Part shown: positions 379 through 30,148 of the stretch, in pieces
How positions within the stretch are numbered: position 1 is the first letter of the stretch
Layout: each line of letters opens with the position of its first letter
NCBI GenBank assembly: GCA_017618275.1
Contig: JAFZUS010000213.1
Span: 1-54,793, forward strand
Reading direction: 5' to 3'
DNA: 54,793 nucleotides
DNA from: Prevotella sp.
GTDB lineage: Bacteria > Bacteroidota > Bacteroidia > Bacteroidales > Bacteroidaceae
The notes under the pieces: generated by a model
What the model saw: only the letters and a program-made list of their open reading frames with translations
Told to the model about the DNA's origin: nothing
Database searches by the model: none
Translations under genes and position numbers: made by a program

Positions 379-930
379 ATGAAAACCATTTATGATTTCT
401 CTGTCAAGGACAGAAAAGGCAAAGACGTTTCCCTGAAGGAATACGCCAATGAAGTGTTGCTCATCGTGAATACCGCCACCAAATGCGGCTTCACTCCCCA
501 GTACGACGAACTGGAGGCTCTCTACAAGAAGTATCACGCTGAGGGTTTTGAGATCCTCGACTTCCCCTGCAACCAGTTCGGACAACAGGCTCCCGGCACT
601 GACGAGAGCATCCATGAGTTCTGCAAACTGAACTTCGGCACGGAATTCCCCCGTTTCAAGAAGGTCAAAGTCAACGGCGAGGATGCCGACCCCCTGTTCA
701 AGTTCCTTCAGAACGAGAAAGGCTTTGCCGGCTGGGATATGGAGCACCCGATTGCACACATCCTCGACGATATGCTGTCGAAGGCCGATCCCGACTACAA
801 GCAGAAGCCCGATATCAAATGGAACTTCACCAAGTTCCTGATCAACAAGAAAGGTCAGGTCGTAGCCCGTTTCGAGCCCACTGAGAAAATAGAGAACATT
901 GCAAAGCAGATTGAAGAACTCTTATCATAA
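379..930 (+). CDS. Glutathione peroxidase family (thioredoxin-type GPx)
   Basis: A 183-residue cytosolic peroxidase that would reduce hydrogen or organic peroxides. Family hallmarks are present: NTATKCGFTPQY with peroxidatic Cys36 (Cys in place of Sec), DFPCNQFGQQ at 61-70 and WNFTKF at 148-153. Cys82, in FCKLNFGTEF, sits where non-animal GPx enzymes carry the resolving Cys that lets thioredoxin act as reductant. There is no signal peptide. The next gene is thioredoxin reductase and overlaps the stop codon by one base, so the pair forms a translationally coupled peroxide-detoxification unit. That pairing supports thioredoxin rather than glutathione as electron donor, which is inference. Confidence 0.92.
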   Translation: MKTIYDFSVKDRKGKDVSLKEYANEVLLIVNTATKCGFTPQYDELEALYKKYHAEGFEILDFPCNQFGQQAPGTDESIHEFCKLNFGTEFPRFKKVKVNGEDADPLFKFLQNEKGFAGWDMEHPIAHILDDMLSKADPDYKQKPDIKWNFTKFLINKKGQVVARFEPTEKIENIAKQIEELLS

Positions 931-1862
931 TGGAAAGAACCAAATGCTTGATCATCGGTAGCGGACCTGCGGGATATACTGCAGCCATCTATGCCTCAAG
1001 GGCTAACCTCAGTCCTATAGAATATAGTGGTATGCAACCAGGTGGACAGTTGACACAAACCACCGAGGTGGAGAATTTCCCTGGCTATCCGCAGGGTGTC
1101 GACGGCAACCAGATGATGATGGACCTCAGGGAACAAGCCGAGCGCTTCGGCACGGACATCCGCGATGGCGAGATCGTGAAGGTAGACTTCTCAAAGGCCC
1201 CCTATCTCTGCACGGCAGAGGACGGCACGGAGATTGCCGCCGACACCGTCATCATCGCCACTGGTGCCTCTGCCAAATACCTCGGACTTGACGATGAGCG
1301 CAAATACAACGGACAGGGTGTCAGTGCCTGTGCCACCTGCGACGGATTCTTCTACCGCAAGAAGACCGTAGCCGTCGTTGGAGGCGGTGACACCGCCTGC
1401 GAGGATGCCCTATACCTGTCTGGACTTGCCAAGAAGGTCTATCTGATTGTGCGCAAACCTTTCCTCCGTGCCTCCCAGGTGATGCAACAGCGGGTGAAGG
1501 AGGCAGAGAACATCGAGATTCTCTTCGAGCACAACACCATCGGACTCTTCGGCGAGAACGGTGTGGAAGGTGCCCACCTCGTGAAACGTAAGGGAGAACC
1601 CGACGAAGCGCTGGTAGATATCGCCATCGACGGTTTCTTCCTGGCCATCGGCCATAAGCCCAACACGGATATCTTCAAGGAATGGCTCGACACCGATGAG
1701 ACAGGTTACCTGAAGAAAATCGACGGCACACCCAAGACAAAGATTCCCGGTGTGTTCGTGGCAGGCGACTGTGCCGACCCCGTCTACCGCCAGGCGATAT
1801 CAGCAGCCGGTTCCGGTTGTCAAGCAGCCATCGAGGCAGAACGGTTCCTATTAAACAGATAG
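930..1862 (+). CDS. trxB: Thioredoxin reductase (NADPH)
   Basis: A 310-residue low-molecular-weight flavoenzyme that transfers electrons from NADPH through FAD and a redox dithiol to thioredoxin. The N-terminal FAD site GSGPAGYTAA, the active-site CATC (Cys134 and Cys137), the NADPH-binding GGGDTACEDA at 151-160 and the C-terminal FAD motif VFVAGDCADP are all visible. Length is typical. The ATG shares a base with the gpx stop codon, so both are read from one mRNA starting at the 313-344 promoter. A strong hairpin terminator follows. Confidence 0.96.
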   Translation: MERTKCLIIGSGPAGYTAAIYASRANLSPIEYSGMQPGGQLTQTTEVENFPGYPQGVDGNQMMMDLREQAERFGTDIRDGEIVKVDFSKAPYLCTAEDGTEIAADTVIIATGASAKYLGLDDERKYNGQGVSACATCDGFFYRKKTVAVVGGGDTACEDALYLSGLAKKVYLIVRKPFLRASQVMQQRVKEAENIEILFEHNTIGLFGENGVEGAHLVKRKGEPDEALVDIAIDGFFLAIGHKPNTDIFKEWLDTDETGYLKKIDGTPKTKIPGVFVAGDCADPVYRQAISAAGSGCQAAIEAERFLLNR

Positions 1863-3936: not shown

Positions 3937-5301
3937 ATGGCTAAACAAAAGAAATTCATCCTCCAAGAGAGTGAGATCCCAACACAGTGGTACAACATTC
4001 AGGCAGACATGCCCAACAAACCGATGCCTCCCATCCATCCGGCTACGAAGCAGCCCTTAGGCGTCGACGACCTCGCACACATCTTCCCCCGTGAGTGCTG
4101 CGTGCAGGAACTCGACACAGAGCATCGTTGGATTGATATCCCTGAGGAAGTGCTCGACAAGTACAAGTTCTATCGTTCCACCCCGCTGGTGCGCGCCTAC
4201 GCCCTCGAAGAGGCCCTCGGCACACCCGCCCACATCTATTTCAAGAACGAATCCACCAATCCCCTCGGTTCACACAAGATCAACTCTGCCCTGCCCCAGT
4301 GCTACTATGCCAAGATGGAGGGCACGACCAACGTGACCACCGAGACCGGTGCTGGTCAGTGGGGTGCTGCCCTGAGTTACGCTGCCAAGATCTACGGCCT
4401 CGACTGCGCCGTCTATCAGGTGAAGATCACCATGCAACAAAAACCCTATCGCAGCAGTATCATGCGCACCTTCGGTGCCGTCGTAGAGGGCTCTCCCTCG
4501 ATGTCCACCCGTGCCGGTAAAGACATCCTCACCAAGGATCCCACGCACTCCGGTTCACTGGGTACCGCCATCTCCGAGGCTGTAGAGTTGGCTACCACCA
4601 CACCGAATTGTAAATATACCCTCGGTTCCGTGCTCAACCATGTAGGCCTGCACCAGACGATCATCGGTTTGGAGGCCGAGAAGCAGATGGCGATGGCCGG
4701 TGAATATCCCGACATGGTGATCGCCTGCTTCGGCGGCGGTTCCAACTTCGGCGGTATCGCCTTCCCCTTCATGCGTCACAACCTGAGCGGCGAGCGCCAC
4801 ACCGAGTTTATCGCTGCCGAGCCCGACAGTTGTCCGAAACTCACCCGCGGCCAGTTCCGCTACGACTTCGGCGACGAGGCTGGCTATACCCCACTGCTGC
4901 CGATGTACACCCTGGGCCATAACTTCCGTCCCAGCAACATCCACGCTGGCGGCCTGCGCTACCACGGTGCCGGCATGATCATCAGCCAACTCATCAAGGA
5001 CGGTTACATGCATGGTGTCGACATCCCGCAACTCGAGACCTTCGAGGCCGGTATGCTCTTCGCCCGCACTGAGGGCATCATCCCCGCTCCCGAGAGTTGT
5101 CACGCCATCGCCGCCACCATCCGCGAGGCCAACAAGTGCAAGGAGACAGGCGAGGAGAAAGTCATCCTCTTCAACCTCTCCGGTCACGGACTCATCGACA
5201 TGCCATCGTACGAGGCCTTCATCAAGGGTGACCTCCAGAACTACACCGTCACCGACGAGATGATCGCTGCGAACCTCGCAGAACTCGACAAACAACAATA
5301 A
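3937..5301 (+). CDS. trpB2: Tryptophan synthase beta chain-like protein, TrpB2 type
   Basis: A 454-residue cytosolic PLP enzyme. The long N-terminal extension before the catalytic core and the sequence FYRSTPLVRAYALEEALGTP are typical of the TrpB2 subgroup rather than TrpB1. PLP-binding Lys114 lies in NPLGSHKINSA; ETGAGQWGAA binds substrate carboxylate; CFGGGSNFGG binds the cofactor phosphate. TrpB2 enzymes condense indole or an indole source with serine to give tryptophan, often without a TrpA partner. No trpA or other trp gene is adjacent, and the gene has its own promoter and terminator, which fits stand-alone use such as indole salvage (inference). Confidence 0.93.
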   Translation: MAKQKKFILQESEIPTQWYNIQADMPNKPMPPIHPATKQPLGVDDLAHIFPRECCVQELDTEHRWIDIPEEVLDKYKFYRSTPLVRAYALEEALGTPAHIYFKNESTNPLGSHKINSALPQCYYAKMEGTTNVTTETGAGQWGAALSYAAKIYGLDCAVYQVKITMQQKPYRSSIMRTFGAVVEGSPSMSTRAGKDILTKDPTHSGSLGTAISEAVELATTTPNCKYTLGSVLNHVGLHQTIIGLEAEKQMAMAGEYPDMVIACFGGGSNFGGIAFPFMRHNLSGERHTEFIAAEPDSCPKLTRGQFRYDFGDEAGYTPLLPMYTLGHNFRPSNIHAGGLRYHGAGMIISQLIKDGYMHGVDIPQLETFEAGMLFARTEGIIPAPESCHAIAATIREANKCKETGEEKVILFNLSGHGLIDMPSYEAFIKGDLQNYTVTDEMIAANLAELDKQQ

Positions 5302-5306
5302 AAAAA

Positions 5307-5338
5307 TCCCCGCTCCAAAAAGGAACGGGGGTTTTTTC
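5307..5338 (+). terminator. Intrinsic terminator after trpB2
   Basis: CCCCGCTCC and GGAACGGGG pair around an AAAAA loop, followed by TTTTTTCTTT. Confidence 0.85.
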
Positions 5339-22544: not shown

Positions 22545-22616
22545 GCACCCGTAGTTTAAAGGATAGAATAACGGATTCCGGTTCCGTTGGTCACGGTTCG
22601 ATTCCGTGCGGGTGTA
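22545..22616 (+). tRNA. tRNA-Arg (anticodon CCG)
   Basis: The acceptor stem GCACCCG/CGGGTGT (22545-22551 with 22609-22615), the anticodon arm ACGGA-TTCCGGT-TCCGT with CCG at positions 34-36, and the T arm CACGG-TTCGATT-CCGTG fold into a cloverleaf. The discriminator base is A and the CCA end is not encoded. It reads CGG codons. The tRNA borders the restriction-modification region, and tRNA ends are common integration sites, but no duplicated tRNA 3' end was noticed. Confidence 0.93.
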
Positions 22617-22688: not shown

Positions 22689-23309
22689 TCATATTTCTTC
22701 TTCCGCCGCCATTGGCATCTGCCTGTCCTCTTCCTCCAGTTTTGGATAGGGTACGACTCTGGCCTGATGATCTTGCAGCCAGATATGGTTTAGAGTGAAA
22801 GCGATAGAGTCCAATGTTTCTTCCCGCTTCTTTGGTGTCAGTTCACACTCCCATACCGTAATACAATGCCACCCCATTGTCGCCAACTGTTTCTGTTCCT
22901 TCTTGTCGCGCTCTTTGTTTCTGCGAATCTTCGCCACCCAGAACTCCCTGTTCGTCTTCGGAATCTTACAGCACTCTGAGCTTTCAATTATGCATTGTGC
23001 ATTATGCATTGTGAATTGAACCTGGTGTCCATGCCAGAAACACCCATTCACAAAGATACACGTCCTGTATTTCCTCAGTACCAAGTCAGGATGCCCAGGC
23101 AACCTCTTATGATTTAGTCTGTATCTAAATCCTCTTTTCCACAATCCACGCCGCACAATCATTTCTGGCTTCGTGTCTTTCGACCGAATCGCTGCCATAT
23201 TGGCTGATCGCCGAGCCTGCTCACGCTCGATAGAACTGATGCCAGCATCGCTCTGCTCTTGCTTAATCGCAGCCTTGGCATGTCGTTGCTGTTTCGAGAA
23301 CTTATCCAT
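22689..23309 (-). CDS. vsr: Very short patch repair endonuclease (Vsr), with a repeat-derived insertion
   Basis: A 206-residue nuclease that nicks DNA at T:G mismatches made by deamination of 5-methylcytosine. RRSANMAAIRSKDTKPEM, LPGHPDLVL with catalytic Asp75, and VNGCFWHGH (89-95) are family motifs, followed by IPKTNREFWVAKIRRNKERD. Between the last two, residues about 96-115 (QVQFTMHNAQCIIES...) are 12 or so longer than usual and come from an AATGCAT-type minirepeat at 22985-23018. The insertion displaces the zinc-site Cys that normally follows the WHGH motif; Cys113/Cys114 may replace it. It has its own promoter, downstream of the methyltransferase-McrBC genes whose methylation it would protect. 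Confidence 0.9.
   Translation of the reverse strand: MDKFSKQQRHAKAAIKQEQSDAGISSIEREQARRSANMAAIRSKDTKPEMIVRRGLWKRGFRYRLNHKRLPGHPDLVLRKYRTCIFVNGCFWHGHQVQFTMHNAQCIIESSECCKIPKTNREFWVAKIRRNKERDKKEQKQLATMGWHCITVWECELTPKKREETLDSIAFTLNHIWLQDHQARVVPYPKLEEEDRQMPMAAEEEI
22985..23018. repeat. Minirepeat translated inside vsr
   Basis: A 34-bp block bounded by CAATT and AATTG and made of repeated ATGCATTGTG/ATTATGCATT units, read in frame within Vsr. Confidence 0.7.
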
Positions 23310-23499: not shown

Positions 23500-25842
23500 T
23501 TATATCTGATACTCTTTCATCTCTGAACAACTATGGAATATGGGAGTATACTCTTTGTAGTTCCTATTTGTCCTTGCCCATGAAATAATACGGAAAATAT
23601 CATAGTTGCCTAAGTAAACCTCTTCATCGATTAGATAGCACTCATAGCTAAATTGCGGATTACGTGGATACCCAGCCCTTATCATGTCAGAGGGTCGCAT
23701 CTCTTTCGTCCCATTTACTCTGTAGGCAATAAAACTATTTTCATGCTCTTTCCCCTCCTGATAAAGAAGGATGAAGCGGACATTATACTTGTCCAAATCT
23801 TCTCTTGGAAAAGCACCATCACGAATACTACCCAAACGTATGTTGTACATACACTGTCTTTGTATCCATTCAAGATGCTCTTGGTTATGGTAGCAGCCTA
23901 TAAGCACGTGAGCCTCTGAATAACGTTCTAAATAATAACGGGGTTTCCAATCGTTGGCGGCTGCATCTCTTTCGTAAGCAAGTCCCTTCTGAGGAATGAC
24001 TTTCTCCAACAATCCTGCTTTTCTGTCGTTCTCCTCTAACCAAGCACGAATTTGTTCATAGAGTACAAATTCACTACTTGTAGGGTCAACATATAGATTA
24101 CCTTCCTCATCTATCTTGGTTGTTCCTGGCCTTAGTGGAAAGGCACCTATGCCAACCTTTTCTATCGAACGATGATAATACGACTGTTCGTACTCTGTTT
24201 TCTCCATATTGCCTGGATAGAGCACATAGCCGCCAATGATTTCTTTCTTCAAATGTGCATCACCTTTCCCATCAGCATAATAGATGGCATCCCTATATCT
24301 ATGCATCTGATTGATGGCATCTTCTGGCGGAACGTCCTTTCCCTCAATCCTTCTATCATTCAAACGATACTTGGCATCAAAGAGATAAGTATATACAATA
24401 TCCTGTTCGCTCTTCTTCGAGAGCCTCAGCACAATATCTGGACGCTGGATCGTAGTAAATGTAAGTGTATCATCTATAGCAGATTCTATATCAGCGTCTT
24501 CTTTTTCCACTTGTGCGTTATAGCTGACGGTAGCCAGTTCCACATCACCTTTCTTGAACGTCACTTCCGACTTGGAGCCATATACCAACTGACGAATGAA
24601 ACCTGATGTCAGTTCCCTGCCTGATGAGTTCGCAGTCGTTTCTTCGCCCAAAATCTGCTGCACCATGTTCTTTACCTTGATGAAGCACCAAATCTCGTAA
24701 AGTTCCGATATGTCCTTTACCTCCAAGTGTCGCATGCTGTCTTCCAGTTCGTAGCCGCATTGTAGCAATAGCCAGTTCTTATAGATATCGCTATAGCCTC
24801 TGGCGCGTTTCATCACCAGCGAGTCCTGGGTGAAGCCCTTGAACTGTCCTATCTGTCGGAAGAAAGGATGATTGCTTAGCCTCGACAACGTATCATCCAT
24901 CTCGCTGATGCGAAGCGATATGGTTTCATCGTTTACTTTCAAACTATTTCTAATATGCACCCTTACTATCGAAAACCGTCTGTGCATCTCCTTGATGGCA
25001 TACTTTAGGAAACGGTTCTCAATAGTATCTTTTGAGAGGAACATTTCTTCCGTCCGATACAAATGGTGAGGGTCGTTCTTGAAAAGCGAATATTCATTCT
25101 CTGTATCTGCAGAGAGATTACGGAGACGCTCAGCCCTTTCGTGGCGCACCTCTGCCTTCAACCTCCGTTTGGGATTATTGATAATCGTTTTCGCAGCCTT
25201 GACAATTTCGTCAAAACACTGGCTGAATATCTGCCACCATATCAGATCTGTACTCTCGCTGTCGTTAGCCTTAAAACTCAGATAGGTCTGTTTTAGGAAC
25301 GAATAACTCAACATCGAATACTCCTGTTCGATGTCGTTGATCATCTGGCGCATGTCTGTGCGATAGTCCAACTTGTAGCTAAGCACTTCTGTACGGAAGT
25401 CCATACATTGCTGTTCTCCGCCAACGGTGTAAACCACCTTGAAATCCGTTCGTCCCACTTGGTTCTTGAAATTCAGCGTACCAAATAGCAGCGAATCTTC
25501 GTCACTTGCATCAGAAGCGGCATCCGATGAATGTCCGGCAATATAGAGTCCGACTATCTTTACCCCTTCATGTAGAGGTTTTACCCTAATAGGGTACTCT
25601 GTGTTCTCAAAGAAGGCGGCCAACTTGTGAAAGTTCTTTTCTTCAGCAGCTTCATTGTCGAAGTAAAACGTGGTATCCTCCTGTTCAGTTGCATAGACTG
25701 CATTTAGGGGTGTATCTTCCTGCTCACCTTTAGCCATCAGATTCTGTATGGCAGCACGAAGGTGCTTGCCATAGTTCTGGCAGGAGATGCGCAGACTCAC
25801 ATTTCCATCCCTCACCTCAAATGAACTGAATCCTGCGGCCAT
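23500..25842 (-). CDS. McrC-like restriction nuclease (DUF2357 / PD-(D/E)XK)
   Basis: A 780-residue protein. The N-terminal two-thirds resemble DUF2357: a beta-rich start, a helical region with ENRFLKYAI (about 275-283) and the marker LYEIWCFIK (381-389). A PD-(D/E)XK nuclease core follows, with RPDIVLRL (Asp469) and LFDAKYRLN (Asp489, Lys491). The last 150 residues form an extra domain I cannot name. McrC-type subunits cut DNA when driven by a partner GTPase, and the gene 13 bp upstream encodes a McrB-like protein. Together with the adjacent methyltransferase this fits the second restriction subunit of LlaJI-like systems, by context and motif rather than close identity. Confidence 0.8.
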   Translation of the reverse strand: MAAGFSSFEVRDGNVSLRISCQNYGKHLRAAIQNLMAKGEQEDTPLNAVYATEQEDTTFYFDNEAAEEKNFHKLAAFFENTEYPIRVKPLHEGVKIVGLYIAGHSSDAASDASDEDSLLFGTLNFKNQVGRTDFKVVYTVGGEQQCMDFRTEVLSYKLDYRTDMRQMINDIEQEYSMLSYSFLKQTYLSFKANDSESTDLIWWQIFSQCFDEIVKAAKTIINNPKRRLKAEVRHERAERLRNLSADTENEYSLFKNDPHHLYRTEEMFLSKDTIENRFLKYAIKEMHRRFSIVRVHIRNSLKVNDETISLRISEMDDTLSRLSNHPFFRQIGQFKGFTQDSLVMKRARGYSDIYKNWLLLQCGYELEDSMRHLEVKDISELYEIWCFIKVKNMVQQILGEETTANSSGRELTSGFIRQLVYGSKSEVTFKKGDVELATVSYNAQVEKEDADIESAIDDTLTFTTIQRPDIVLRLSKKSEQDIVYTYLFDAKYRLNDRRIEGKDVPPEDAINQMHRYRDAIYYADGKGDAHLKKEIIGGYVLYPGNMEKTEYEQSYYHRSIEKVGIGAFPLRPGTTKIDEEGNLYVDPTSSEFVLYEQIRAWLEENDRKAGLLEKVIPQKGLAYERDAAANDWKPRYYLERYSEAHVLIGCYHNQEHLEWIQRQCMYNIRLGSIRDGAFPREDLDKYNVRFILLYQEGKEHENSFIAYRVNGTKEMRPSDMIRAGYPRNPQFSYECYLIDEEVYLGNYDIFRIISWARTNRNYKEYTPIFHSCSEMKEYQI

Positions 25843-25855
25843 ACCATATTATATA

Positions 25856-27685
25856 CTATCCCCAGAAAGATACAAAATGGTCGCGCTTAAGCGTTGTTAT
25901 CATACTATTTAACTTCGCCAACGACTTGCTTGTTCCTTCCGTACCAAAAACGCTGCTTAAATAGATGTTCAGTTCGTCCAACAACTTTTTGCCATCCTTG
26001 GTAACTAGTTTCGAGTCATCTCCCTCTATGCGGCTAAGTATCTTCATCAGCGTGAAGTCATCAAGTGCGGCATTCAGATTACCTGCACCAACCACCTTGT
26101 CTGCTGCCACATAAAGAATGGCCTCATTGGCTGCACGATAGCCAAGCTTAAAAGGTGTACCCTCTAAGATATCGTTTACCCCCTTCAAGAAGTTCATCAC
26201 CTCTTGTGACTCTACTCCGTCCTTGACTTCTTGTGCAGAAATAGGACGATTTACGAAAAGCTCATTCTGTTCTGTTAGTTTGGGAACATTATACTCTGTC
26301 TTCCCTTCGATAAATCCATCGTAGTCAACCTCATTCATCTCTATCGACATTGCTCTGTCGAGCACCTTGCGTGAGAACGAAAAAGTGGTTTCATCCATAT
26401 TTACCGTTCCCATCACAATAAGGTTCTTGGGCAGCGTTAGACCTTTTTTCCTAAATCGATTCTCCACATTTAATGGAATTTCATATCCTAAATCCTCGAA
26501 ATGTTGCATCATTTCCCCTGCTAATTCACTTCCAAAGCTGTTAAATGGTTTGATGATAGGATCTGTCTCAAACTCACCATCTTCACCAATAGAACGAGAC
26601 TCTATGGCACTCAGGAACTCAGCAAAGTATTCCTCTACTGGGGCGAGGTTCATCTCGTCGAGACAAAGGAAAAATGGCGTGTTTTCATAACACCAAGCCT
26701 TCACCACGAAATCCACAAATGGCGTAAACTCATAATGCGGTTCAGGAATAATCGATTGGAATCCCACCACATCCATTGAGTTGTGCCAGTTTGGCTTCAC
26801 CTGTATCAACTCAAAGTTTGCAGGTCGAGGACACTTCCATCTGTCTTCCTCGTTCGCAAACACATCAATGTCATCCGTCGCCTGTGCCAGTTTCCTCACA
26901 ATACGAGATTTACCTGTACCAGAAATGCCTGCAAGCAGAATGAATGGTTTGGTACGGATGGCGGTGAGATAAGCATTAACAGATTTATTGTTATCATTTA
27001 GGGATGTAATAGTGATATTTCGACTACCTCCCATTGGATACAGTTCGTCAAAATTGGTTTGACTAACAAGAATATAATCAGCAGTATCTAGAGCCGCATA
27101 TAATGGTTGAATAAATGGGCCTCTACTTAATTCACCTGGCGAGGCTGTCACGGACTTTCCATCTGCTGTAATGTTCTTACTTAATGTAGTACCTAGTTTC
27201 CCTGATATTTTGGACAATACAACGCTATCTGATTCAAAATAATCACTATACTTGATTTCTTTTTCTTGCGTATAAAATGCATTCTTGATATCAGTAACAC
27301 TTAGATGGAAATCTTCTGAAAACATCGCAAGTAGTTTCTCATTGGTGATATCGTCGGGGAGTGGTGTAGATCGATATGCCCATATTATTATGTCATAAAT
27401 ATTGGGAATAGTTTGCCCCTGCTTGTCAAAGAAATCGTTCCATTGGGTAGAAAACTTAACATACCATTCTTTCCCATTGTCGATATAACTCTTTTTACTT
27501 CCTAAACAAAAGAGTTGTTCAATATAAGTAGACAAACTACTACAGTTAACAGCATAAGTTCGTCCAGGAACAATCATGCTATCTAATTGGTGCATAATTG
27601 CCAATACTCCCCAAGACTTGTTAGTTATTGAACCTTGAAAGCCTTTGTATGCATTAGCAACGCTTTCGGAAGAAAAGTATTTCAT
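25856..27685 (-). CDS. McrB-like AAA+ NTPase of a restriction system
   Basis: A 609-residue protein. Residues 1 to about 230 form an N-terminal region with no recognised fold that presumably binds DNA. The AAA+ domain has Walker A GISGTGKS (253-260), Walker B FFLCLDEMN (338-346) and the sensor-like TVNMDETT (427-434). The last takes the place of the MNTAD signature that gives E. coli McrB its GTP preference; Asn and Asp are kept, so nucleotide choice is uncertain. Members assemble as rings and power a McrC nuclease. The start is 2 bp from the methyltransferase stop, so the two are tightly coupled. Confidence 0.85.
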   Translation of the reverse strand: MKYFSSESVANAYKGFQGSITNKSWGVLAIMHQLDSMIVPGRTYAVNCSSLSTYIEQLFCLGSKKSYIDNGKEWYVKFSTQWNDFFDKQGQTIPNIYDIIIWAYRSTPLPDDITNEKLLAMFSEDFHLSVTDIKNAFYTQEKEIKYSDYFESDSVVLSKISGKLGTTLSKNITADGKSVTASPGELSRGPFIQPLYAALDTADYILVSQTNFDELYPMGGSRNITITSLNDNNKSVNAYLTAIRTKPFILLAGISGTGKSRIVRKLAQATDDIDVFANEEDRWKCPRPANFELIQVKPNWHNSMDVVGFQSIIPEPHYEFTPFVDFVVKAWCYENTPFFLCLDEMNLAPVEEYFAEFLSAIESRSIGEDGEFETDPIIKPFNSFGSELAGEMMQHFEDLGYEIPLNVENRFRKKGLTLPKNLIVMGTVNMDETTFSFSRKVLDRAMSIEMNEVDYDGFIEGKTEYNVPKLTEQNELFVNRPISAQEVKDGVESQEVMNFLKGVNDILEGTPFKLGYRAANEAILYVAADKVVGAGNLNAALDDFTLMKILSRIEGDDSKLVTKDGKKLLDELNIYLSSVFGTEGTSKSLAKLNSMITTLKRDHFVSFWG

Positions 27686-27687
27686 AA

Positions 27688-28716
27688 CTATTTGTTTTTA
27701 TCGTAAGTTCTAATCATTTCTTTCATTATAAGCTTGATAATGGGTACACTTACTGAATTGCCCAACTGATGATACGCTTGTGCATCAGAAACGGGAAACC
27801 TGAAATCATCAGGGAATCCCTGTAGCCTTTGAGCCTCTAAAACAGAAAGTTTTCTTCTAATATCCCAAAGCTTTGGTGTTCTATTAGCTATTATCGTTGA
27901 GGCATAGGTGTCAAGACAAGAGTAGAATGCTTCTTGAATTTGTGTCTTGGCCACATCACCGACATGAAAACGTAATGAACCATCTGGTTTCTGAAAAGAA
28001 TATATTCCATACTTACCTTTTTTTGTATGAGGCTCGTATTTGGAATTATCGTGCTTAACTCTTTCGCCAGGTTTTGCAATAGAGAAATGATAATCAATCC
28101 TATCCAACTCGAATTGAGGAAGTCTTAACGTTGGATTGTCATCATTCAAGTTCACAATATCTCTTAAAGTAGGATGACCGCCAAGAGGTTTGGGCCATAT
28201 GAAATCAACATCTTTACGGAAGGCAACGCAATACCAACGTTCTCTTTTTTGAGGCAAGCCAAAATCAAGAGAAGAAAGAATAGTCCAATGCGGAAAATAT
28301 CCTAATTCCTTTAACTTTTCAAGAATGATATTCAAAGTCTTTCCGTTCTCATGAGATTTTAATCCCTTAACGTTTTCTAAGAACACCATAGGCGGTTTGT
28401 GGTAATCGAGGATTCTACATATATCAAAGAACAATGTACCTCTTATTTCGTCGTTAAATCCTTGCTTTTCACCAGCATAGCTAAATGGCTGACAAGGGAA
28501 GCCTGCAGCAAGTATATCAAATGGAGGAATGTCTCTTGCCTCAATCTTTTTTATGTCACCTTCTGGTATCTCACCAAAATTAGCTTGATATGTTTCCTGT
28601 GCGAACTTGTCGTTATCAGAAGAAAAAACACACTCTACGTTGTTATCTTCCATCGCAAGACGGAATCCGCCAATACCACAAAACAAATCTATTCCTTTAT
28701 ATTTCTTCTTTGACAT
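27688..28716 (-). CDS. dcm: DNA (cytosine-5-)-methyltransferase
   Basis: A 342-residue C5-methyltransferase. Motif I GIDLFCGIGGFRLAM, motif IV AAGFPCQPFSYAG with the catalytic Cys, motif VI FLENVKGL, motif VIII GLPQKRERWY, motif IX LEAQRLQGFPDDF and motif X YHQLGNSVSVPII are all present. The frame stays open upstream to 28836, but those codons coincide with a hairpin-rich leader and resemble no methyltransferase. ATG at 28716 (MSKKKYKGIDLF) is the natural start. A 12-bp hairpin plus T6 ends one base before this ATG. In the operon order methyltransferase, McrB, McrC it would protect the host sites. Target specificity cannot be read from the short variable region. Confidence 0.93.
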   Translation of the reverse strand: MSKKKYKGIDLFCGIGGFRLAMEDNNVECVFSSDNDKFAQETYQANFGEIPEGDIKKIEARDIPPFDILAAGFPCQPFSYAGEKQGFNDEIRGTLFFDICRILDYHKPPMVFLENVKGLKSHENGKTLNIILEKLKELGYFPHWTILSSLDFGLPQKRERWYCVAFRKDVDFIWPKPLGGHPTLRDIVNLNDDNPTLRLPQFELDRIDYHFSIAKPGERVKHDNSKYEPHTKKGKYGIYSFQKPDGSLRFHVGDVAKTQIQEAFYSCLDTYASTIIANRTPKLWDIRRKLSVLEAQRLQGFPDDFRFPVSDAQAYHQLGNSVSVPIIKLIMKEMIRTYDKNK

Positions 28717-28869
28717 GAAAAAAGCCCTCTCTTCGTTTCGAAAAGGGGGCGTGGAAGAAGATGTGTTTAAGCAAGGCCTACCACAGCCCACATCAGACAA
28801 CAATCTAACTGTCCACGCCCGTATGAGCGTAAACATCCAATTGCTTGTCTAACTGATGTGTTCTGTAGT
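28717..28869 (-). promoter_or_regulatory. Candidate two-state RNA leader (terminator/antiterminator) of dcm
   Basis: Positions are + strand; the RNA is read leftwards. Terminator: 28739-28750 pairs with 28724-28735 (12 positions, one mismatch, loop AAA) and is followed by T6 at 28718-28723. Helix A: 28863-28869 with 28780-28786 and 28853-28860 with 28789-28796, joined by a 2x2 internal loop. Helix C: GGGCGTGGA (28812-28820) with TCCACGCCC (28747-28755), 9 perfect pairs, enclosing helix B, GATGTG (28789-28794) with CACATC (28760-28765). C overlaps the terminator arm and crosses A. So A plus terminator and B plus C are mutually exclusive, as in attenuators. No ligand or peptide is known; seen by eye, not by folding software. 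Confidence 0.5.
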
Positions 28870-28940
28870 GTGGTAATTCTGCTTAATCAGTCAACCAAGG
28901 ATGTCAAAGACGCTTTGTATTTCTTACTCTTTTCTCGTTC

Positions 28941-29004
28941 TATTTATAGTTGTCCGCAAACACCCTGTGCGAACGGGTTCAATGATTATCGCCAACTACA
29001 AATA
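28941..29004 (-). other. Inverted repeat in the dcm upstream region
   Basis: TATTTATAGTTG (28941-28952) and CAACTACAAATA (28993-29004) are complementary with one mismatch, and an inner stem GTCCGCA/TGCGAAC (28952-28958 with 28968-28974) lies inside. It would fold as a hairpin between the upstream ncRNA candidate and the dcm leader. Confidence 0.45.
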
Positions 29005-29007
29005 AAA

Positions 29008-29326
29008 AAGCGCGGGTGCTTGCATCTGCCTGTTCGACTTTCGCGGCCTACCACAACCCTAACGGTAAACAGACAGAGAAACACCCACGTTGGAGTATAT
29101 AGACACCCGTAAAGTGTGCATTGAGGATACCAGACCCTCGCAGCACACTACGGAGAGTATATACTACACCCCGTGGAGTTACCCCTGCAATGTTTTTGAC
29201 CGTTATTCGATTGTGGTAGTTTCGAAAGTCCAAAAACAAAGCGTCAGTAACGCCTTTCAATATGTAGTGCTCCACCCATCGGCTCCGTCCTCCTCAGAGG
29301 ACATCCCAGCCGCAACGAGCGGATGC
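29008..29326 (-). ncRNA. Candidate structured non-coding RNA upstream of dcm
   Basis: A -7 box (TACCTTTG at 29332-29339) would start a transcript near 29326. About 320 nt of non-coding sequence follow, with nested complementarity. One example is a long hairpin at about 29091-29168 whose arms share GTGTGC, CCGTA and AGTATATA. Another is a 9-bp stem 29068-29076 with 29026-29034. An outer stem 29080-29089 with 29011-29020 ends in T6 (29004-29009), which would act as terminator. It shares TGTGGTAGGCC (29045-29055) with the dcm leader (28775-28785). I do not recognise it as tmRNA, RNase P RNA or SRP RNA. A 75-codon frame here has no protein-like features. Confidence 0.45.
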
Positions 29327-29331
29327 AGTTG

Positions 29332-29339
29332 CAAAGGTA
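29332..29339 (-). promoter_or_regulatory. -7 promoter box of the ncRNA / dcm transcript
   Basis: Minus-strand TACCTTTG followed by CAAC. No -33 TTTG at the ideal distance. Confidence 0.5.
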
Positions 29340-29448: not shown

Positions 29449-29560
29449 GGAAAGAATCTTAATCACAAAGTCAGACACTTGGCATGAAATCTCAATTGAA
29501 TTCCCTATAACACGCTATGATTAAATTATGGAATACTAATCCAAATAAAAAACAAAATAT

Positions 29561-29592
29561 TTTGGAGAATTCAAAAATAATGTATATCTTTG
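29561..29592 (+). promoter_or_regulatory. Promoter of the toxin-antitoxin pair
   Basis: TTTG at 29561-29564, exactly 20 bp, then TATCTTTG at 29585-29592. A near-perfect Bacteroidetes promoter 23 bp before the antitoxin ATG. Confidence 0.8.
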
Positions 29593-29615
29593 CAGCGTTC
29601 AATCAACTAAACGAT

Positions 29616-29861
29616 ATGAAAGAAAAGAAATCCAAGACCCATATTGGGGAAGATACAGGTTGTATGACTGTTTGTGAACCAGCCTTGGCAACAGCAGATG
29701 TAATGGAAATGCCATTGCCTGACGATATGGATTATGCTCATATCGTAAATGGCGTATTACAAATCACTCCTGACATTGAAGATGAGATGGCTGCTGTAGA
29801 TCGTGGCGAGGTAGTATCGATGGGAGAATTCAAAACGATGTTCGCACGATGGCTCGATTGA
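29616..29861 (+). CDS. Putative antitoxin of a ParE/RelE-type pair
   Basis: An 81-residue acidic protein, MKEKKSKTHIGEDTG to FKTMFARWLD. ATG at 29616 is chosen because the promoter's -7 box lies inside the longer upstream frame. I cannot assign it to a named antitoxin family. The acidic central part (DDMDYAHIVNGVLQITPDIEDEMAAVDRGEVV) and C-terminal EFKTMF segment would suit wrapping around a basic toxin. The toxin gene starts 13 bp before its stop codon, which is the usual coupling in type II systems. Identification rests on size, charge and partner. Confidence 0.65.
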   Translation: MKEKKSKTHIGEDTGCMTVCEPALATADVMEMPLPDDMDYAHIVNGVLQITPDIEDEMAAVDRGEVVSMGEFKTMFARWLD

Positions 29862-30148
29862 TTGAATTTAGCCGCCGCTCAACAGGGCAACTTCAAAAAA
29901 TACTAACCTTCTATGATGAACGCAATGGCTCTGACAATTATAGCAGGCATTTCTTGAAATGTTTATTGGAAGATGTGCATAGAATTGCCCAAACCCCAAC
30001 GGCAAGCAGTCCCTCTACACGTTCTGATGTCCGCTTCTTTTATTTGATGGGATTCACCATCATCTTTCGTTATAACTCAAAAAGGGTCATTGTGTTAAGC
30101 ATCCGCTCTTCAGCACGAAAGCCGTTGAAAATATACCAGATAAAATAG
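29849..30148 (+). CDS. RelE/ParE-family toxin
   Basis: A 99-residue basic protein. MARLIEFSRRSTGQLQKILTFYDERNGSDNYSRHFLKCL matches the two-helix start of ParE-like toxins, and DVRFFYLMGFTIIFRYNSKRVIVLSIRSSARKP gives the following beta-sheet with its conserved Arg and the terminal R-P element. Such toxins poison gyrase (ParE) or cleave mRNA on ribosomes (RelE); sequence alone does not say which. It overlaps the antitoxin gene by 13 bp. The pair sits between a restriction-modification locus and a dyad-symmetric iteron region, consistent with a stabilisation module of a mobile or formerly mobile segment. Confidence 0.75.
   Translation: MARLIEFSRRSTGQLQKILTFYDERNGSDNYSRHFLKCLLEDVHRIAQTPTASSPSTRSDVRFFYLMGFTIIFRYNSKRVIVLSIRSSARKPLKIYQIK

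Follow-up and report, generated by a model that had tools for sequence, protein, structure and literature searches.

Our analysis revealed a conserved, covarying structured RNA family that stands directly upstream of restriction-modification (R-M) genes in Prevotella and related bacteria of gut and rumen. The founding member lies on the minus strand of a window of 54,793 nucleotides from Prevotella sp. (contig JAFZUS010000213.1), the whole stretch of DNA that was analyzed, and precedes a cytosine methyltransferase gene. By its sequence, the 5′ leader and the 3′ tail of this RNA can each pair with an internal strand of its central rod and would displace the rod partner of that strand. Comparison with relatives indicates that the RNA is probably a modular cis-regulatory transcription attenuator heading R-M operons in Prevotella-like bacteria, and suggests that an undescribed kind of RNA switch controls these defences.

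Structure of the leader RNA and its operon

The RNA in the window, termed RNA-D, is a type-1 leader RNA of 186 nt upstream of the cytosine methyltransferase gene. It was matched over the full length of the R1 covariance model at 28719–28904 of the minus strand with 208.4 bits, being itself one of the 18 sequences used to build R1. The minimum free energy of 28717–28880 (minus strand) was −62.2 kcal/mol, whereas shuffled sequences averaged −38.8 (sd 3.4); this corresponds to a z-score of −6.86, and none of 200 shuffles was equally low. This z-score and the covariation described below argue against a chance fold. A weak R1 match of 15 bits (E 0.14) on the plus strand at 5249–5337 is probably due to chance.

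The rod consists of four helices, all given here in minus-strand order. P1 joins 28879–28886 with 28767–28774 and P2 joins 28870–28876 with 28778–28784, with changes on both sides in 7/8 and 6/7 pairs, respectively. P3 joins 28853–28860 with 28789–28796, the helix showing both-side changes in six of its nine pairs in the alignment, and the hairpin P4 joins 28825–28834 with 28811–28820. The leader ACATCC (28899–28904) is the 5′ strand of helix D, and its partner GGATGT (28833–28838) shares its final two bases with the first two of P4. At the other end, the tail TCCACGCCC (28747–28755) is the downstream strand of helix C and pairs with 28812–28820, which is also part of the 3′ strand of P4. The tail overlaps, at 28747–28750, the 5′ arm of an intrinsic-terminator-like element (28718–28750, minus strand) composed of a hairpin at 28724–28750 (−14.0 kcal/mol) and six T residues at 28718–28723. 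A single C follows, and then the ATG of the methyltransferase gene (28714–28716).

The original prediction, made from the sequence alone, had described helix C as nine perfect pairs and a terminator hairpin whose T6 ends one base before the ATG; we recovered both, helix C with 9/9 pairs and −17.8 kcal/mol. It had also proposed a long helix A, which does pair where it was placed (−23.1 kcal/mol). The inner eight pairs of helix A are conserved and correspond to P3, but the outer half (CTACAG with CTGTGG) is not conserved and its place is taken by P2 in the comparative structure. Helix D at the 5′ end and the hairpin P4 had been missed; P4 is the direct competitor of helix C, as the two use the same strand. 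A coding leader was considered as well and rejected: in the window an ORF from the ATG at 28836 runs in frame into the methyltransferase, but in the relative L018 it stops after five codons, as judged by eye.

The first gene behind the RNA encodes a C5 cytosine DNA methyltransferase (27688–28716, minus strand; PF00145, E 2.1e-90; TIGR00675 dcm). The second and third genes (23500–27685, minus strand; PADLOC PDC-M26A and, weakly, PDC-M26B) encode an AAA ATPase and a DUF2357/PDDEXK_7 nuclease, and the run ends with a Vsr mismatch endonuclease gene (22689–23309, minus strand; PF03852, TIGR00632). Genes 2 and 3 had been labeled McrBC. This label is doubtful, since gene 2 gave AAA_5/AAA_16 matches below the cut-off only and gene 3 matched DUF2357 and PDDEXK_7; NCBIfam gave no match for either gene. 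A tRNA gene lies just beyond vsr (22545–22616, plus strand), so that the R-M operon may belong to a tRNA-linked island. On the other side, two overlapping small ORFs (29517–30148, plus strand) are divergent from the operon and, judged by eye, resemble an antitoxin and a toxin of the RelE/ParE type; they gave no NCBIfam or PADLOC match.

Extent of the RNA family

Strong blastn matches to the RNA were found in 11/59 other genomes of the same genus, three of which had two matches each. At related dcm loci taken from genome records, blastn detected the RNA in six of 39, and of the 33 without such a match one gave a weak match to R1 (L036, 23.4 bits). The 18 copies aligned with a mean column identity of 81%, and RNAalifold predicted 47 pairs, 14 of them with compensated changes. 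The R1 model built from these copies matched 105/398 same-genus genomes at E ≤ 0.01, and 68 matches in 63 of the genomes exceeded 80 bits. Beyond the genus, within the same order and under strict filters, 7/294 other genomes had matches at E ≤ 0.001, one of them strong. The resulting set of 74 strong type-1 loci comprises 67 from the same-genus R1 scan, six from the related dcm loci and one from the order scan; the partial-length matches L116 and L136 stand outside this set. Alignment A5 contains 70 of the loci and leaves out L084, L092, L094, and L135, near copies of L047, L037, L033, and L134, respectively.

A known Rfam family was ruled out, as no family matched the RNA. Above the gathering score, Rfam 15 found only tRNA in the window and no match to RNA-D; a permissive scan of the window returned only unrelated matches, all below the cut-off, and the sole match on 32 relative loci was an abiF RNA elsewhere on L141. 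That abiF RNA (RF03085; L141:1722–1758, plus strand) scored 40.2 bits, just above the cut-off, and lies approximately 1.3 kb downstream of a type-2 RNA. Phage and plasmid records contained no match to the leader RNA and viral contigs, searched with one core pattern, contained no exact match; a phage or plasmid origin was therefore set aside.

Covariation and competing pairings

The rod was strongly supported by the 70 sequences of A5. Its cells were paired in 97.3% of cases, against 38.6–43.5% in slid versions, and both-side changes occurred in 29/47 pairs (0/500 shuffles) and in 271 cells (64.3, sd 6.0, in shuffles). P4 alone was paired in 98.3% of cells, and both-side changes occurred in six cells (1.3 in shuffles); the number of P4 pairs with such changes was two, which was not above shuffles (119/500).

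Helices C and D were absent from the model that produced the alignment. Taken together they were paired in 98.1% of cells, compared with 36–57% in slid versions, and showed both-side changes in four pairs and eight cells (shuffled cells 1.3, sd 1.1). Further pair types were not above shuffles for C and D (166/500) or for P4 (467/500), and much of helix C is invariant and uninformative on its own. Helix D was paired in 98.6% of the cells of the 70 sequences, with C-G replaced by U-A in four of them. In 4/70 sequences (L119, L120, L121, and L129, which carry ATATCC) column 89 changed from G to A along with both column 2, its partner in D, and column 139, its partner in P4. This joint change is expected if column 89 alternates between the D and P4 pairings, and the four sequences may represent only one or two events. 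The type-1 permutation test gave 0/5000 for C, 8/5000 for D, and 49/5000 for P4, in support of all three; such tests leave relatedness in, and control pairings of the same relatedness are the only guard. No covariation was seen for helix E, a proposed extension of D: its own permutation gave 32/5000, and the joint D and E test was weak (510/5000, with controls at 551 and 2922 of 5000).

Mutually exclusive pairings, as the original prediction had proposed, are kept in relatives and partly covary; P4 and C share a strand and both are retained, with few independent changes in type 1. Conservation and covariation in the leaders of homologous methyltransferases, whose absence would have spoken against the prediction, were both found.

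G-U was the commonest pair at several positions, for example columns 28–179, 91–137, and 97–128, which fits RNA rather than DNA. This bears on the idea that the element is a recombination site or the end of a mobile element, read as DNA, in which the palindromic rod would allow exchange of R-M cassettes and the RNA fold would be a by-product. The leader is indeed swapped between R-M genes, as described below, and the strongly palindromic rod lets the model match the opposite strand weakly as well. However, the G-U pairs, the retention of the leader and tail pairings and the lack of matches in phage and plasmid records make a DNA site very improbable.

Genes behind the RNA

The next gene was readable at 73/74 type-1 loci, L131 having no readable downstream gene. 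A methyltransferase or restriction endonuclease gene came first at 66/73 loci, and at 49/73 it was a C5 methyltransferase gene (PF00145). Elsewhere the first gene encoded a D12 adenine methyltransferase (L128) or a nuclease of the MutH (L082), Alw26I (L113), BstXI (L120 and L121), or MjaI (L122) type, an HNH nuclease (L107) or an IceA-like nuclease just above the cut-off (L127). PADLOC type II restriction enzymes accounted for nine first genes, six scanned directly (L118, L119, L124, L129, L133, and L134), with L125 and L130 added at an identity of at least 60% and L135 as a near copy of L134. Two first genes encoded other defence proteins, namely AIPR (L105) and a DUF2971/PDC-S31 protein (L208). 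At L111, L123, and L126, a TPR protein gene came first and was followed by an ORF named MazG-like by eye, and at L108 and L132 a methyltransferase-like ORF, again by eye, was second or third. The reverse is not true: a type-1 RNA was directly upstream of only 12/105 PF00145 matches in 60 same-genus genomes.

The leader is modular. Grouping the first proteins of 68 loci (L132 excluded) at 60% identity gave 32 clusters, of which 28 are R-M; distant relationship links the C5 methyltransferase clusters but not the nuclease families. Among RNA pairs with at least 90% identity, 68 preceded proteins of different clusters and 12 proteins of the same cluster. The nearest RNA neighbor shared the protein cluster at 12/68 loci, or 12/51 where a cluster mate exists. 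RNAs as close as those of L068 and L069 (97.9% identity) or L086 and L088 (98.4%) preceded different clusters, and the RNA of L078, before a C5 methyltransferase, was 95.2% identical to that of L082, before the MutH-type nuclease. Since near-identical RNAs precede different clusters, the leader is swapped independently of the gene, and it is unlikely to be specific to one protein partner.

These observations also bear on the possibility that the RNA, like those of type III toxin-antitoxin or abiF systems, is set free at the terminator and works in trans, as a stand-alone or protein-binding molecule that targets what the next gene encodes. The order seen here, a structured RNA followed by a predicted terminator and a defence gene, agrees with that described for abiF (PMC12373285). 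The single downstream protein family that marks those systems was not seen here, as 32 clusters stand behind 68 leaders, and pairs such as L078 and L082 make one partner unlikely; we consider a trans-acting RNA improbable.

A conserved structured RNA directly in front of a restriction-system methyltransferase, as first proposed, was borne out in relatives. A device specific to dcm and McrBC was not: the same RNA precedes 28 R-M protein clusters and belongs to a larger superfamily. A dcm-specific leader was rejected, since many non-dcm genes carry the RNA and most of the related dcm loci (33/39) gave no blastn match.

A second RNA upstream

Approximately 100 nt further upstream than RNA-D lies a second rod of the same plan, RNA-U (29004–29245, minus strand), recognized from sequence and fold. 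Its P1 pairs 29223–29231 with 29036–29043 and its P2 pairs 29213–29219 with 29048–29054; its tail, 29010–29018, stands opposite 29082–29090 and is followed by a T-run to 29004. RNA-U-like DNA was found at 42/74 type-1 loci, including two short matches of 30 nt (L104) and 27 nt (L081). R1 did not find the RNA-U of the window at E ≤ 1, and found the L103 copy at 22.5 bits. The RNA-U of L109 carries the TTAGCAC/GTGCTAA core typical of RNA-D, and the tail of that of L032 has CATCC opposite GGATG where the others have CACCC opposite GGGTG. At L034, RNA-U precedes dcm, and RNA-D was not found there by R1.

At five loci, 363–381 nt separate RNA-U from RNA-D and contain a small ORF of no Pfam family. 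The ORF of L042 (2506–2775, plus strand) encodes 90 aa and matched no Pfam family; the other loci were assessed by eye. Another tandem arrangement was seen at L117, where a different R-M-linked subtype of the superfamily (925–1094, plus strand) lies approximately 400 nt upstream of the type-1 RNA.

A candidate promoter of the whole leader, TACCTTTG (29332–29339, minus strand), fits TAnnTTTG, the Bacteroidetes −7 box; no well-spaced −33 TTTG was seen for it. TAnnTTTG occurred within 100 nt upstream at 14 of the 73 type-1 loci with 100 nt available, where shuffles gave an expectation of 3.6.

A wider superfamily

Weak R1 matches were mostly full-length and followed a common plan. From 16 of these matches, none of them a type-1 sequence, we constructed a second model, R2, although it was R1 that had first picked up its members. 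R2 matched 19/40 same-genus genomes and recovered the RNA of the window at 29.5 bits (E 4.5e-4); the genome of the window contains six R2 places, the window included. Because the rod is palindromic, many R2 matches are accompanied by a weaker match on the opposite strand, and the best match per locus was kept. The superfamily RNAs mostly lie within approximately 80 nt upstream of an ORF, and 4/46 loci had no downstream ORF under the filter used.

The first genes include those of a BspA-type LRR surface protein (L191, PF13306) and HTH regulators (L212), as well as R-M genes encoding Tsp45I with an N6/N4 methyltransferase (L138), MmeI (L206), a ResIII protein (L205), and a type II methyltransferase (L142). 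Structured leaders with a GTCCACG/GCTCACG tail precede BspA-type LRR and other secreted surface proteins at L188, L190, L191, L200, and similar loci, and several are present in the genome of the window.

Over 64 superfamily loci, the tail paired with its own P4 3′ strand at −18.98 kcal/mol and with those of others at −14.89 kcal/mol (0/5000 permutations). The leader likewise paired with its own P3 5′ region at −9.75 kcal/mol and with those of others at −7.72 kcal/mol (0/5000), and two control pairings gave no signal (4887 and 3619 of 5000). These results suggest that the superfamily inherited both the leader and the tail pairing from its ancestor. The tail of superfamily relatives lies directly before a U-tract, so that helix C, or the tail paired with P2, could itself form a terminator stem, and the switch logic may be reversed in these relatives.

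We tentatively propose, as a possibility that we hold with less than even confidence, a large undescribed Bacteroidales superfamily of leader RNAs using strand exchange at two ends, in which leader and tail would each mimic a different rod strand and jointly choose between two folds. It would have branches for R-M and other phage defence, for surface proteins (BspA-type LRR proteins and lipoproteins) and for small HTH regulators, so that the cell's phage-facing genes would share one RNA-sensed signal.

Discussion

We infer that the RNA picks between two folds during transcription. In the first, the rod P1-P2-P3-P4 would form, P4 would hold the strand that helix C needs, and the tail would be left free, allowing the terminator to form and turning the operon off. 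In the second, the leader would pair with the 5′ side of P3 and P4 as helix D and the tail with the 3′ strand of P4 as helix C, which would take the lower 5′ arm of the terminator and let RNA polymerase read into the operon. Helix D uses bases at the foot of P4, so that D and C together would exclude the rod and terminator, whereas D and C, nested in succession, could coexist in one fold. The terminator extends to the start codon or its immediate vicinity, which leaves no room for an intervening promoter.

The nested fold with C and D reached −53.7 kcal/mol, compared with −71.8 kcal/mol for the rod plus terminator. The latter is far more stable, and the second fold would thus need co-transcriptional kinetics or a bound factor. 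The same stability, by far the greatest of the folds, might indicate a constitutive damper, in which a fixed terminator and a start codon pressed on the hairpin lower expression and nothing switches. Low steady expression suits R-M genes, and a damper would supply it. Competing strands at both ends would be unnecessary for such a device, yet they are kept across the superfamily, and we consider a damper rather unlikely.

By a crude filter, 57/70 type-1 RNAs have a hairpin flush against a T-run and 13/70 fail. Helix C is largely kept in these 13; the RNA may therefore have an output besides the terminator, and the output may differ between copies. Control could instead be translational, the fold opening or closing the start codon beside the hairpin and the T-run being incidental. 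At most type-1 loci 1 nt separates the RNA from the start codon, and this position, like the 13 failing RNAs, agrees with translational control; a hairpin flush against a T-run is not needed for it, yet 57/70 RNAs have one, and we regard control of this kind as unlikely. For the attenuator that we favor, the balance between the folds could be tipped by a ligand, a protein, the ribosome, or the speed of transcription. Given how varied the first genes are, the trigger is more likely to be a general signal of the cell or of infection than the gene product itself.

Most descriptions of R-M control concern C-proteins or repression by the methyltransferase, with a few antisense RNAs besides. C-protein systems likewise place a small control element ahead of the R-M genes. 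Here, in contrast, the head element is an RNA, and no HTH controller ORF was seen between RNA and methyltransferase in the window. In Bacteroides faecis, Parabacteroides goldsteinii, and some MAGs, relatives of this dcm gene follow an HTH ORF of 69–70 aa, the arrangement of C-protein systems. A small HTH ORF takes the place of the RNA upstream of dcm at L043, L044, L048, L049, and L065 (L044 and L049 by scan, the others by eye).

With riboswitch and attenuator leaders the RNA shares a structured 5′ leader, alternative pairings that share strands and a predicted terminator before the start codon; it differs in having no known ligand or Rfam match, in carrying decoy strands at both ends, and in heading R-M genes. 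Like the RNAs of abiF and type III toxin-antitoxin systems, it is a structured RNA with a predicted terminator before a phage-defence gene, but the proteins downstream come from many families, arguing against a single protein partner. RNA-based R-M control is found in EcoRI and Eco29kI, two systems controlled by antisense RNAs transcribed from reverse promoters inside the genes, according to a review of R-M control (PMC3874152); the RNA described here is, in contrast, a sense 5′ leader.

Among openly accessible full-text articles, our searches brought up no paper on a class of leader RNAs heading R-M genes. In a 2025 review (PMC12707154), a word search found no mention of riboswitch, attenuation, leader, noncoding or small RNA, or Prevotella. 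Parts of the superfamily may be listed among the thousands of motifs in the supplements of PMC8040213.

If the attenuator model is true, phage defence through dozens of different R-M systems would be governed in one bacterial genus by a common RNA switch. Such a switch would give a handle on the signal behind the R-M leader, and would explain how new R-M genes are plugged in under existing control.
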